From assembly GCA_016191815.1 (NCBI GenBank), contig JACPVI010000024.1, positions 1 to 64,000 on the forward strand: a stretch of DNA of 64,000 bases, read 5' to 3'. Under the pieces are notes generated by a model, which saw nothing but the letters and a program-made list of their open reading frames with translations, was not told the DNA's origin and searched no databases. Made by a program: the position numbers and the translations under genes. Shown in pieces: positions 30,965 to 38,489 of the stretch. This DNA comes from Myxococcales bacterium (lineage in GTDB: Bacteria; Myxococcota; Myxococcia; Myxococcales; Myxococcaceae). Each line of letters begins with the position of its first letter. Position 1 is the stretch's first letter.

Positions 30965-31540
30965 ATGCTCGAGCGACGGGGCGTGTCGCTCTCCGAGATC
31001 CTCGACGCCCTCTGTGAAGCCGCCCGGCGAGCCACCGACGCCCGCGCGGGCGCCATCATCCGTTTCTCCCAAGGCCACACAGCTTGCCTTGCATGCAGCG
31101 GCGAAGGTGGGCGGCTGCTCGATGTGCTGGCCGACGCGGAGCGCGTGGCCAAAGGCGCCACCGGCGGAGGGCTGGTGCTCGTGCAACTGGGCGGAGGGAA
31201 CGGCGCGGCCACCGTCCTGGTGCTCGACAGCCCAGCGCGGGACGGGGCGCTCGCGCCGCTGGGCAGGCTGGGAAGGTCGATCCTCGCGCAGCTCGACTCG
31301 GCCGGCAGCCCGGAGGAGGCCCGTTTGGCGATGGTCAGGCACCAGTTGAAGACGCCGCTGGTGGCGATGAAGGGCTACCTGGACATGGTGCGCCGCGGAA
31401 TGGCGGGGCCGATCACGCCGGTGATGGACCGCTACCTCGAGCGGGTCGCGGCCGGGATCGAGCGAGCGCGGGCGCTGGTGGATTCGGAGCTGCAGGCGAC
31501 GGCGCCCCGAAACGCCGACCGCTACACAGTCGGCGGCTGA
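30965..31540 (+). CDS. GAF-like and HisKA-domain protein lacking a kinase ATPase domain
   Basis: A 191-aa protein (ATG at 30965; GTG at 30947 also possible). Residues about 10-115 look like a small GAF-type sensor (ARAGAIIRFSQGHTACLACSGEGG through VLVLDSPARDGALAPLGRL). Residues about 118-170 are a HisKA dimerisation and phosphoacceptor helix pair with MVRHQLKTPLVAMKGYLDM; His126 is the phosphoacceptor. The protein ends before any HATPase_c domain, and none follows. It may be a phosphotransfer module for another kinase, or a truncated kinase. The selenoprotein pair starts about 110 bases downstream on the same strand. Confidence 0.68.
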   Translation: MLERRGVSLSEILDALCEAARRATDARAGAIIRFSQGHTACLACSGEGGRLLDVLADAERVAKGATGGGLVLVQLGGGNGAATVLVLDSPARDGALAPLGRLGRSILAQLDSAGSPEEARLAMVRHQLKTPLVAMKGYLDMVRRGMAGPITPVMDRYLERVAAGIERARALVDSELQATAPRNADRYTVGG

Positions 31541-31588: not shown

Positions 31589-31653
31589 CGCGCCGCCGGG
31601 CGCCGCTGGGCATGCTTGATAGGCGGCATTCGGCACGCCGCAAGGAGGTAGAC

Positions 31654-32163
31654 ATGGCAGCGACCAAGAGACCGATCTGGAAGCTCTCGGTCGGCGAAGA
31701 GGCGCCGGACTTCGAGCTGACCGCCACCGGCGATGCCGCCGGGAAGGGCGGTCCCCAGAAGAAAGTGCGGCTGAGCAGCTACCGCGGGAAGAAGAACGTG
31801 ATGCTGGCCTTCTACCCGGCGGCGTTCACTCCCGTTTGAACGGTCCAGATGCCCTCGTACGAGGAGGATCTCTCCGAGTTCGAGCGGCGCAATACCCAGG
31901 TCCTGGGTATCTCGACGGATCAGGTTTTCAGCAACGAGGCATGGGCGAAGTCGATGGGCGGGTTGTCGTATCCCCTGCTGAGTGACAACTGGCCATACGG
32001 GCACGTGTGCGCGCAGTACGGGGTGCTTCGCGGCTCCGGAATGGCGGAGCGGGCGATCTTCGTGATCGATCGCCAGGGCATCATCCGCTACGTCGACGTG
32101 CACGACATCGACGAGCAGCCGCCCACCGACAAGATCATCGAGGCGCTCGACCGGCTGAAGTGA
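31654..32163 (+). CDS. Selenocysteine-containing peroxiredoxin (in-frame TGA at 31837-31839)
   Basis: A 169-aa AhpC/TSA-family peroxidase that reduces H2O2 or organic peroxides. The ATG has an AAGGAGG site 5 nt upstream. Reading through the TGA at codon 62 gives AFYPAAFTPV-U-TVQMPSYEEDL: U sits exactly where the peroxidatic Cys of FYP-x-AFTxxC peroxiredoxins belongs, after Thr59. The frame continues without another stop through GISTDQVFSNEAWAKSMGG, PLLSDNWPYG, GMAERAIFVIDRQGIIRYV to 32163, all typical of the family. Cys119 is the only other redox candidate and may resolve the selenenic acid. A SECIS-like hairpin follows the TGA. The alternative, a stop-mutated pseudogene, is unlikely because the family profile is intact on both sides and the next gene shows the same feature. 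Confidence 0.92.
31853..31875 (+). promoter_or_regulatory. Candidate bacterial SECIS element (peroxiredoxin)
   Basis: Stem GGAG (31863-31866) with CTCC (31872-31875) encloses the loop GATCT. The loop begins with G, 27 nt after the TGA, inside the 16-37 nt range described for bacterial SECIS elements. A competing 12-bp palindrome CCTCGTACGAGG lies at 31853-31864. The structure was judged by eye, not folded. Confidence 0.55.
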
Positions 32164-32184: not shown

Positions 32185-32871
32185 ATGGCGGTGCCCCCGA
32201 TCGAGCTGTCGCGGTACTGCGTCCCGTACACGCCATTCAAGCGCAGGCTCGAGGAGGCGACGATCTGCCTGGTGAGCTCCGCGGGAGTACGGGCGCGCGC
32301 CGACGCGCCGTTCAACCCCGATGGAGACGCCGGCTACCGCGCGATCGACGGCACCGCCTCGACCGCCGAGCTGACCTACGATGACAAGCACTACGAGCAC
32401 GGCTGCGTCGACAGCGACCTGAACTGTGTGTTCCCGCTCGATCGGCTGCACGAGCTGGCGCACGAGCTGCGGATCGGCGGGGTGGCTCCCAGGCACTTCT
32501 CTTTCGGGTACACCCAGGCGCTCCGGGAGCTGAGAGAGAGCACCGTCCCTCACCTGGCGCGGGAGGTGGATCGCGTGCGGCCGGACGCAGTCCTGCTCAC
32601 CGGCGGCTGAAGGCTCTGTCACCGCACCGTGGTCACGGTGCAGCGGGCGATCGAGATGCTGGGGATTCCGACCGTGTTGATCACCGTGGAGCCGGAGGAG
32701 AGCCTCCAGGCGAGGCCTCCGCGGGCGCTGTGCCCGAGGGGATTCGTCCCCGGCTTCACGCTGGGGCGGCCGAAGGATGCGGCACTGCACAAGTGGATCA
32801 TCCTCGACGCCCTCGGGCTCCTGCTCGCGCCGCCGCAGCCGGGAGAGGTGGTGGTGCGCGACTACCGATGA
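32185..32871 (+). CDS. GrdB/PrdB-like selenoprotein (in-frame TGA at 32608-32610, UxxC motif)
   Basis: A 228-aa protein related to selenoprotein B of glycine, sarcosine and betaine reductases and to PrdB of D-proline reductase, close to the short PrdB-like size. It starts MAVPPIELSRYCVPYTPFKRRLEEATICLVSSAGV; the mid part IGGVAPRHFSFGYTQ and RPDAVLLTGG-U-RLCHRTVVTVQRAIEMLGIPTV are hallmarks. The TGA is codon 142 and Cys145 follows, giving a UxxC redox pair as in GrdB/PrdB. Reading continues unbroken to a TGA at 32869-32871. It lies 21 bases after the Sec-peroxiredoxin, so likely one operon. No other reductase subunit (GrdA, GrdC, PrdA) is present, so Stickland-type reduction is unlikely; a thiol/selenol redox role is inferred. 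Confidence 0.9.
32624..32641 (+). promoter_or_regulatory. Candidate bacterial SECIS element (GrdB/PrdB-like gene)
   Basis: A perfect 7-bp stem (GCACCGT with ACGGTGC) carries the tetraloop GGTC; loop G begins 21 nt after the TGA. The apical GGU matches the SelB-contact nucleotides of the E. coli fdhF SECIS. Position, stem length and loop all fit. Confidence 0.75.
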
Positions 32872-34347: not shown

Positions 34348-34430
34348 CTTGATGCCCCTCTGCTTGACCGGCTGGAAGACCGGAGGGTATGTCCGCCCCC
34401 TATCTTTCGCACCACCCAACGGGAGCGCCC

Positions 34431-35297
34431 ATGGCTCGAACCGTCAAGGGCGGCCTCATCCAGGTCGCCTGTCCGAAGACCGAGGGAAGCGTCAAAGAGA
34501 TCGCCACCGCGATGCTGGAGAAGACGCTGCCGCTGGTGGAGAAGGCCGGCAAGAGCGGAGTGCAGATGCTCTGCCTCCAGGAGATCTTCAACACTCCCTA
34601 CTTCTGCCCGGCGCAGACGCCCAGCTGGTACGAGACCGCCGAGGAGGTGCCCGGGCCGACCACCCAGCTGTTGGCGGAGTACGCCAAGAAGCACGGGATG
34701 GTGGTGGTGGTGCCGCTCTACGAGCGCGAGATGGCCGGCGTCTACTACAACACCGCGGCGGTGATCGACGCCGACGGCAAGTACCTCGGCAAGTACCGCA
34801 AGAACCACATCCCGCAGACCTCGGGCTTCTGGGAGAAGTACTACTTCAAGCCCGGCAACCTCGGGTACCCCACCTTCCGCACCCAGTTCGGCGTGGTGGG
34901 CGTGTACATCTGTTACGACCGGCACTTCCCCGAGGGCGCGCGGCTCTTGGCGCTCAACGGCGCGGAGGTGGTGTTCAACCCCTCGGCGACCGTGGCCGGT
35001 CTCTCGCAGTACCTCTGGAAGCTGGAGCAGCCCGCCCACGCGGTGGCCAACGGCTACTTCATGGGCTGCATCAACCGGGTGGGCACCGAGCCGCCGTGGA
35101 ACATCGGGAGGTTCTACGGCACTTCGTACTTCGTCGACCCCCGAGGGAACTTCCTTGCCACCGGGAGCGAGGACAAAGACGAGCTGATCGTCGCCGAGAT
35201 GAACCTCGAGCTGATCGAGGAGGTGCGGAGGGTCTGGCAGTTCTTCCGCGATCGCCGCCCCGAGACGTACGGCGACATGGTCAAGCTCCTGCCGTGA
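34431..35297 (+). CDS. Beta-ureidopropionase-type nitrilase-superfamily amidohydrolase
   Basis: A 288-aa carbon-nitrogen hydrolase with the Glu-Lys-Cys triad as Glu51 (CLQEIFNTPYFC), Lys124 (KYRKNHIPQTSGFWEKYYF) and Cys161 (VYICYDRHFPEGAR). The HIPQ-x-x-GFWEKYYF region is typical of N-carbamoyl-beta-alanine/N-carbamoylputrescine amidases. The hydantoinase gene next to it favours beta-ureidopropionase, releasing beta-alanine, CO2 and ammonia in reductive pyrimidine breakdown. ATG at 34431 has a GGGAG site; an earlier ATG at 34389 is less likely. Confidence 0.92.
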   Translation: MARTVKGGLIQVACPKTEGSVKEIATAMLEKTLPLVEKAGKSGVQMLCLQEIFNTPYFCPAQTPSWYETAEEVPGPTTQLLAEYAKKHGMVVVVPLYEREMAGVYYNTAAVIDADGKYLGKYRKNHIPQTSGFWEKYYFKPGNLGYPTFRTQFGVVGVYICYDRHFPEGARLLALNGAEVVFNPSATVAGLSQYLWKLEQPAHAVANGYFMGCINRVGTEPPWNIGRFYGTSYFVDPRGNFLATGSEDKDELIVAEMNLELIEEVRRVWQFFRDRRPETYGDMVKLLP

Positions 35298-35306
35298 GGT
35301 GATGCC

Positions 35307-36698
35307 ATGAGGATATTGATCAAGAACGGGACCGTCGCCACCGCCTCGGAGCTGTTCAAGTCGGACGTGCTGATCGAGGGGGAGAAGATCGCTCTGCTCG
35401 GAGCGGACCTGGTCTCGAAGGTGGGCGAGGTGGACCGCACCATCGAGGCCTCGGGCAAGTTCGTCATCCCCGGCGGCATCGATCCGCACACCCACCTCGA
35501 CATGCCCTTCGGCGGCACCAAGAGCGCCGACGACTTCGAGACCGGGACCCGGGCGGCGGCCTTCGGCGGCACCACCTGCGTGGTGGACTTCGCCATCCAG
35601 CCGGCGGGCGGAGCGCTCCGCGCAGGCCTCGACGAGTGGCACCGGAAGGCCGAGGGCAAGGCCTGCACCGACTACGGCTTCCACATGATCGTCCGCGAGG
35701 CCGGCAAGGAGACGCTGGCCGAGATGGACCTCCTCGTGAAGGAGGGCGTGCCCTCGTTCAAGCTCTTCACCGCCTACCCGGGCGTGTTCATGGTGGACGA
35801 CGCGACTCTCTTGCGCGCGCTGCAGCGGAGCGCCGGCAACGGCTCCCTCATCTGCCTGCACGCCGAGAATGGGCCGGCGATCGACGTCCTGGTCGCCGAA
35901 GCGGTCGCCAACGGCCACACCGCCCCCAAGTGGCACGCGCTCACCCGCCCCCCGCGGCTGGAGGGCGAGGCCACCCACCGGGCCATCGTGCTCGCGGAGC
36001 AGGCCGGGGCGCCGATCTACATCGTGCACCTCACCTGCAAGGAGGCGCTCACCGCGCTGCGCGAGGCCCGCGGCCGCGGCGTGCCCGCGATGGCGGAGAC
36101 CTGCCCGCAGTATCTCTTCCTCTCGCAGGAGAACTACGAGGAGCCGAACTTCGAGGGCGCCAAGTACGTGATGAGCCCTCCGCTTAGGCCCAAGGGCCAC
36201 GACGAGGCGCTCTGGCAGGGGCTCAGGTTCGGCGACCTGGAGTTGGTCTCCACCGACCACTGCCCCTTCAACTTCAAGGGCGACAAGGACCTCGGCAAGT
36301 CGAGCTTCGCGAAGATCCCCAACGGGGCGCCGGGCATCGAGCCGAGGATGAGCCTGATGTGGGACGGCGGGGTGCGCGCGGGCCGGATCGACGTGAACCG
36401 CTTCGTGGAGATCACCAGCACCGCCGCGGCGAAGATCTTCGGCATGTTCCCGGCCAAGGGGACGATCGCGGTGGGCTCGGACGCGGACCTGGTGGTGTTC
36501 GACCCGGAGAAGGAGATCCGCTGGTCGGCGAAGACGCACCACATGCGGGTGGACTACAACCCGTACGAGAACCGGGTGACACGAGGGGCTCCGGCGCAGG
36601 TCTTCTCGCGCGGGAACCTGATCGTCGACGGGGAGAAGTGGCTGGGCAAGGCGGGGGCGGGGAAGTTCGTCCGGCGCGGCTCAAGGCAGGGGAAGTAG
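35307..36698 (+). CDS. Dihydropyrimidinase / D-hydantoinase
   Basis: A 463-aa amidohydrolase that opens dihydrouracil or hydantoin rings. Binuclear metal ligands: His61 and His63 in GGIDPHTHLDMPFGG, carboxylated Lys152 in SFKLFTAYPG, His in CLHAENG and in IVHLTCKEAL, Asp317 in STDHCPFN. Length and order are standard. It supplies the substrate of the preceding amidase and lies 9 bases after it. The dihydropyrimidine dehydrogenase genes needed for the full pathway are not in the window, so imported dihydropyrimidines or hydantoins could be the real substrates. Confidence 0.95.
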   Translation: MRILIKNGTVATASELFKSDVLIEGEKIALLGADLVSKVGEVDRTIEASGKFVIPGGIDPHTHLDMPFGGTKSADDFETGTRAAAFGGTTCVVDFAIQPAGGALRAGLDEWHRKAEGKACTDYGFHMIVREAGKETLAEMDLLVKEGVPSFKLFTAYPGVFMVDDATLLRALQRSAGNGSLICLHAENGPAIDVLVAEAVANGHTAPKWHALTRPPRLEGEATHRAIVLAEQAGAPIYIVHLTCKEALTALREARGRGVPAMAETCPQYLFLSQENYEEPNFEGAKYVMSPPLRPKGHDEALWQGLRFGDLELVSTDHCPFNFKGDKDLGKSSFAKIPNGAPGIEPRMSLMWDGGVRAGRIDVNRFVEITSTAAAKIFGMFPAKGTIAVGSDADLVVFDPEKEIRWSAKTHHMRVDYNPYENRVTRGAPAQVFSRGNLIVDGEKWLGKAGAGKFVRRGSRQGK

Positions 36699-36705
36699 CC
36701 TGCCG

Positions 36706-36905
36706 ATGAGACAGGCGCTCTGGCTTTTCTCGCTCGCGCTGGCTTCCGGCTGCGTGCACAAGCCGAAGGCGGCGGCGGCGGCTCCGGCCGCGTCCGCGGC
36801 CAATTCCTCAGGCGCGCAGCCACAGCCGGAGAGCACGAGACCGCCGGGCCCCTCGGGCAAGGCCCGGCCGAGCGCCTCGGACGTCTCGAATCCGAGCACC
36901 CGCTG

Positions 36906-36906
<1 letters not shown>
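36706..36906 (+). CDS. Small Ala/Pro-rich lipoprotein
   Basis: A 66-aa product: MRQALWLFSLALASGC is a clear lipoprotein signal with an LASGC lipobox at Cys16, followed by an Ala-, Pro- and Ser-rich tail. Starts 7 bases after the hydantoinase stop and its TGA overlaps the permease ATG by one base, so it is embedded in the operon. No function can be assigned. Confidence 0.6.

Positions 36907-38489
<1,583 letters not shown>

Follow-up and report, generated by a model that had tools for sequence, protein, structure and literature searches.

Proteins of the PrdB and GrdB type are known for cleaving C-N bonds. In D-proline reductase, the substrate is bound by the pyruvoyl group of PrdA, and an attack on it by the selenocysteine (Sec) of PrdB has been proposed (PMC3091704). 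Peroxidase activity has been reported for GrdB, which is related to PrdB (Groebe et al. 2007, cited in PMC3091704 and PMC2702500). The PrdB-like selenoprotein family itself is long known. PrdB-like UxxC selenoproteins have been catalogued in the Sargasso Sea data (PMC1088965) and in the GOS data (PMC2398784), and a 2006 catalogue lists a "proline reductase" selenoprotein of Anaeromyxobacter dehalogenans beside three Sec-peroxiredoxins (PMC1794560). Like the protein described here, these metagenome and Anaeromyxobacter entries are UxxC selenoproteins assigned to PrdB by homology, and the Anaeromyxobacter entry very likely belongs to the very clade that we describe. They differ in carrying the name proline reductase, and we found no link to a peroxiredoxin described there. 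The pair of a peroxiredoxin and a PrdB-like gene is not mentioned in the GOS list of neighbouring selenoprotein genes (PMC2398784), nor in the section on selenoprotein operons of a 2026 review (PMC13188914). In the part of the literature that we covered, a paired, jointly switching, PrdA-free clade appears to be undescribed, and a prior description elsewhere is possible. On the peroxiredoxin side, the closest described system is AhpE of Mycobacterium tuberculosis, a 1-Cys peroxiredoxin that is reduced by a separate redoxin, mycoredoxin-1 (PMC4360819).

A PrdB-like gene downstream of a Sec-peroxiredoxin gene

The window, a stretch of 64,000 nt from a Myxococcales genome, contains two adjacent frames that each read through one in-frame TGA (Table 1). 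The second encodes a PrdB-like protein with the translation MAVPPIELSRYC...LLTGG-U142-RLCHRTVVTVQR...VVVRDYR, ending at a TGA stop at 32869-32871. An earlier interpretation of the window, made from its letters alone (the sequence-only reading), had described the neighbour of this gene as a Sec-peroxiredoxin, and that identification both holds and proves meaningful. The best solved relative of the peroxiredoxin is AhpE (Rv2238c; 3e-27). Judged from its PxxxTxxC/U motif and the lack of a conserved resolving Cys (there is no invariant second Cys across an alignment of 24 homologues), it is predicted to be an AhpE-like peroxiredoxin of the 1-Cys, here 1-Sec, type. AhpE thus shares with the window peroxiredoxin the 1-Cys architecture that needs an outside redoxin; unlike the window pair, the AhpE system is without Sec, and mycoredoxin is a glutaredoxin homologue rather than a PrdB-like protein. 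We know of no linked gene pair formed by AhpE and mycoredoxin-1. We also considered whether the pair is the prxU/prpU pair of Eubacterium acidaminophilum and rejected this; PrpU is an 11-kDa CxxU protein of a glycine decarboxylase operon.

Table 1. Features of the PrdB-like gene and its upstream neighbour, in window coordinates
Feature	Coordinates	Strand	Remarks
Shine-Dalgarno-like AAGGAGGT before peroxiredoxin start	31642..31649	+	read from sequence
Sec-peroxiredoxin (AhpC/TSA, 1-Cys AhpE-like), 169 aa, U62	31654..32163	+	PF00578, 1e-35
TGA codon for predicted peroxidatic Sec62, PxxxTxxU motif (FTPVU)	31837..31839	+	homologue alignment
Candidate SECIS hairpin CCCUCGUACGAGG of peroxiredoxin, short stem, GU in loop	31852..31864	+	weak alone
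PrdB-like selenoprotein, 228 aa	32185..32871	+	start 21 nt past peroxiredoxin stop
TGA codon for Sec142	32608..32610	+	conserved TGA in homologues; then R-L-C (U-R-L-C motif)
Cys145 codon, second half of UxxC	32617..32619	+	invariant in alignment
Candidate bacterial SECIS, 7-bp stem and GGUC apical loop	32624..32641	+	covariation; loss in Cys homologues

The two genes stay together and share their Sec or Cys state

A genome search found the close PrdB-like clade in 23 of 195 Myxococcota genomes, with copies 57-73% identical to the window protein. Orthologues of the peroxiredoxin are present in 24 of the 195, and the PrdB-like gene adjoins in 23 of these 24; none of the 171 genomes without the orthologue has the clade (Fisher value for co-occurrence 5e-29, which ignores shared ancestry). 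We recounted the pairing with tblastn because conserved-neighbour clustering was noisy from spurious antisense frames in GC-rich DNA. The peroxiredoxin gene lies directly upstream in all 23 cases, with gaps of 2-43 nt for the chosen starts, one overlap and one fusion, and among the surrounding genes the pair alone is common to all loci, other neighbours varying between families.

The two genes also agree in their use of selenium: 21 of the 23 pairs are Sec/Sec, two are Cys/Cys (G121, locus L092, and G122, locus L091), and none is mixed. The two Cys/Cys genomes are sisters, the remaining third member of their genus being Sec/Sec, and in the tree they form one branch nested among Sec forms; the joint switch from Sec to Cys was probably a single evolutionary event. 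Both genomes keep an intact tRNA-Sec, and SelB is present in at least G121 (matches in G122 are fragmentary and under the cut-off), so that loss of the Sec machinery does not explain the joint switch. Both SECIS-like loops have decayed in these two genomes.

In a further genome, G078, the peroxiredoxin frame continues without a stop into the PrdB-like frame, the two being joined by some 27 linker residues (L043:3-1217; the contig is also L003). This is possibly a natural fusion that yields one double-Sec polypeptide, and since it comes from a single draft genome, a changed stop or an assembly error could also produce it. The sole lone orthologue, a Sec-peroxiredoxin without a PrdB-like neighbour (G059; L139:5035-5541), has three extra Cys residues, which could take over the resolving role; each of them also occurs in a minority of the paired peroxiredoxins, and the G078 protein has two.

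The close clade was found in only three searched genomes of the host's own family, compared with most genomes in the Anaeromyxobacter family, and loss or transfer is therefore likely. Searches of phage records and of IMG/VR contigs gave no homologue. Directly upstream of the pair in the window is a short HisKA frame without an ATPase domain (31010-31537), resembling a truncated or single-domain histidine kinase; downstream, a carbon-nitrogen hydrolase, a dihydropyrimidinase-like amidohydrolase and a cytosine/purine permease stand in a row (34389-38489), likely forming a pyrimidine-breakdown operon.

A possible role as peroxiredoxin reductant

Because the genes stay together and switch from selenium to sulfur together, our data suggest that they form a single redox system and do not serve amino-acid fermentation. 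A 1-Sec peroxiredoxin would need an outside reductant, as AhpE uses mycoredoxin-1, and the PrdB-like protein is the natural candidate, since it is always adjacent, has a UxxC centre, matches the peroxiredoxin in using Sec or Cys and in one genome is fused to it. We propose that it is a dedicated UxxC redox partner that reduces the 1-Sec AhpE-like peroxiredoxin, with a probability that we put at roughly 0.45; both the interaction and the direction of electron flow are what we infer from the genes. The unit would be prx(Sec)-prdB-like(Sec), with the PrdB-like gene second. Peroxide would oxidise Sec62 of the peroxiredoxin to a selenenic acid, whose reduction would need an outside partner; Sec142 of the PrdB-like protein would then attack the oxidised peroxiredoxin, Cys145 would resolve the bond as a selenenylsulfide within the UxxC motif, and cellular dithiols would re-reduce the PrdB-like protein, perhaps through C12, C28, C74 and C81. 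The protein would thereby have retained the PrdB core and UxxC centre while working without a pyruvoyl substrate-binding subunit, and hence without amino-acid reduction.

Several considerations weigh against this proposal: the pairing counts ignore shared ancestry and the joint switch probably represents one event, the fused frame comes from one draft genome, the G059 peroxiredoxin exists without a partner and its extra Cys residues also occur in some paired peroxiredoxins, and the known activity of PrdB and GrdB is the cleavage of C-N bonds rather than the reduction of peroxiredoxins. We hold a little more tentatively to a broader form of the idea, in which a 1-Sec peroxiredoxin has acquired a protein of the PrdB/GrdB type as its dedicated reductant, both proteins using Sec in a diselenide or selenosulfide relay and gaining or losing selenium jointly. 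If the PrdB-like protein does reduce the peroxiredoxin, it would represent a new type of peroxiredoxin reductase, one that belongs to neither the thioredoxin nor the glutaredoxin family. Should the relay exist, an amino-acid reductase subunit would have been converted into a peroxiredoxin reductase, and the joint retention or loss of two Sec residues would serve as a natural experiment on the reasons for cellular selenium use.

Alternatively, the PrdB-like protein may work in its own right as a thiol-dependent peroxidase or as a reductase of oxidised small molecules, which serves beside the peroxiredoxin in a stress response and does not act on it. The peroxidase activity reported for GrdB (Groebe et al. 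2007, cited in PMC3091704 and PMC2702500) would fit such a role, and adjacency and co-occurrence would likewise follow if two peroxide enzymes were expressed together. Nonetheless, independent action on its own leaves unexplained the joint Sec or Cys state in Sec-competent genomes and the fused frame, and we consider it rather improbable, though a serious contender to reduction of the peroxiredoxin.

Relationship to PrdB and GrdB

The best NCBIfam match of the window protein is the D-proline reductase family PrdB (TIGR04483), at 138.4 bits against a curated cut-off of 300 bits; similarity to the GrdB families (TIGR01917/TIGR01918 and PF07355) is weak, at 30 bits. In a profile comparison with PrdB of Terrisporobacter, 210 columns (about residues 15-223) align at 40% identity, the Sec UxxC centre falls at the homologous position and the UxxCHR core is retained. 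In the tree, the PrdB-like clade is sister to the true PrdB clade, with support of 1.0 for the joint clade. The window protein thus shares with PrdB (TIGR04483; Terrisporobacter, Enterococcus raffinosus, Peptoclostridium acidaminophilum) about 40% identity, length class, Sec UxxC position and core residues; it differs in falling under the PrdB cut-off, in having no PrdA, in being paired with a Sec-peroxiredoxin, and in four extra invariant cysteines (C12, C28, C74 and C81), which are missing as a set from true PrdB and from a more distant PrdB-like clade. From GrdB, GrdF and GrdH (selenoprotein B), which belong to the same superfamily and likewise have a UxxC centre in the C-terminal half, it differs in being about half the length, in its weak similarity, and in a genome without GrdA or GrdE.

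These matches, alignment and tree, the last two of which the sequence-only reading had proposed, support its assignment of the protein to the PrdB/GrdB superfamily as a Sec UxxC protein. Its description of the protein as short does not survive, given that authentic PrdB of Terrisporobacter and Enterococcus has 241 aa, compared with 228 aa here, at about 40% identity. No solved structure resembles the PrdB-like protein in sequence, and an AlphaFold model built from four sequences (mean pLDDT 43) gives at most a hint of a strand-UxxC-helix arrangement.

The more distant PrdB-like selenoproteins of Myxococcota (L055, L056, L057, L094, L095 and L101) have mostly UPFC or USFC motifs and one TGA each; no such peroxiredoxin lies within the stretches examined around this distant clade. 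Separately, a Paraclostridium bifermentans plasmid (CP124691.1) carries an intact Cys-type PrdB-like frame adjoining a CBO2463-domain gene (L087:4977-5660); the frame has no CDS in the gene table of that record, which is incomplete.

The kinship with PrdB raises the possibility that the protein is a substrate reductase that cleaves C-N, C-S or similar bonds, working either independently of PrdA/GrdE or together with a partner that has escaped recognition, while the peroxiredoxin guards its oxygen-sensitive selenol. Identity to PrdB of about 40% along almost the whole protein, the retained UxxCHR core and the sister position in the tree all speak for such an activity. However, the host genome and its relatives have no PrdA/GrdE-type pyruvoyl protein and no GrdA, and no other conserved neighbour gene is available to supply a substrate-binding subunit, so that we regard this explanation as unlikely. 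PrdA (TIGR04480) had no match in the host genome or in seven relatives, where control matches reached 1e-292 or better, and neither GrdE-type proteins (PF09338) nor GrdA (PF04723) were found in the host genome or in six relatives, again with a positive control; the positive controls for these searches were plasmids of Enterococcus, Terrisporobacter and Peptoclostridium, which gave strong matches. With PrdA absent, only the Sec or Cys redox centre remains.

The absence of PrdA and GrdA from the neighbourhood, noted in the sequence-only reading, accordingly extends to the whole genome and to the six or seven relatives searched. That reading had also pointed to a role other than amino-acid reduction; the lack of PrdA, GrdE and GrdA agrees with this, while the pairing, the joint switch, the fusion and the clade-specific cysteines had gone unnoticed. 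Because PrdA/GrdE and GrdA are nowhere found in the genome, we conclude from gene content that the PrdB-like protein serves neither as a D-proline reductase nor as a glycine reductase. An ordinary D-proline reductase PrdB with its partner genes elsewhere in the genome would agree with TIGR04483 being the best match, at 138 bits, and with the "proline reductase" label given to the Anaeromyxobacter protein in 2006 (PMC1794560), but that score is far under the 300-bit cut-off and no PrdA occurs in a genome that is 98.8% complete or in the seven relatives, which makes this reading very improbable and largely refutes it. Given that this clade is strictly linked to a peroxiredoxin and lacks PrdA/GrdE, the name proline reductase is misleading for it, and peroxide defence is a testable function.

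Decoding of the in-frame TGA

The sequence-only reading had placed a TGA at codon 142, followed by R-L-C, in a frame open to 32871, and rereading the frame together with its homologues confirms this. A single TGA occurs at the same position in 21 of the 23 close homologues, well above chance expectation, and the other two (G121 and G122; loci L092 and L091) have TGC, encoding Cys. Nonsynonymous differences number 79/660 in the 30 codons after the TGA, compared with 174/660 in the 30 codons before it; purifying selection is stronger downstream of the TGA than upstream. The host genome encodes SelB and has a tRNA-Sec with anticodon TCA, confirmed by ARAGORN. The two findings that the sequence-only reading had named as refuting it, a lack of homologues with Cys or Sec at this position and a genome without SelB/SelC, are both contradicted by these results.

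A hairpin, GCACCGU-GGUC-ACGGUGC, begins 13 nt past the Sec142 TGA, and its loop lies 20 nt past that codon. Of the 21 TGA loci, 19 carry the GGUC loop on a 7-bp stem without interruption, and neither of the two Cys loci does. One stem pair occurs in both orientations, G-C and C-G, in five genomes against thirteen, through changes at two synonymous Thr sites, and a second compensatory change replaces U-A with C-G; neither compensation is kept in the two Cys genomes. Covariation in the hairpin exceeds that in all 500 shuffles and in every slid control, counts that relatedness inflates. Taken singly, the window sequence folds with an energy that is unexceptional against shuffles (z -0.5), and the case for a SECIS is made instead by the covariation and the loss in Cys forms. 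Rfam has no matching SECIS family for this hairpin.

The conserved TGA, the Cys homologues, the covarying hairpin, the purifying selection after the TGA, the tRNA-Sec and SelB identify this as a genuine selenoprotein gene; the same evidence contradicts a pseudogene or two genes separated by a true stop, a reading with a negligible chance of being right, although a mechanical list of open reading frames, taken alone, breaks the frame at the TGA. In the peroxiredoxin gene, the GU in the loop of the candidate hairpin is altered in the two Cys homologues.
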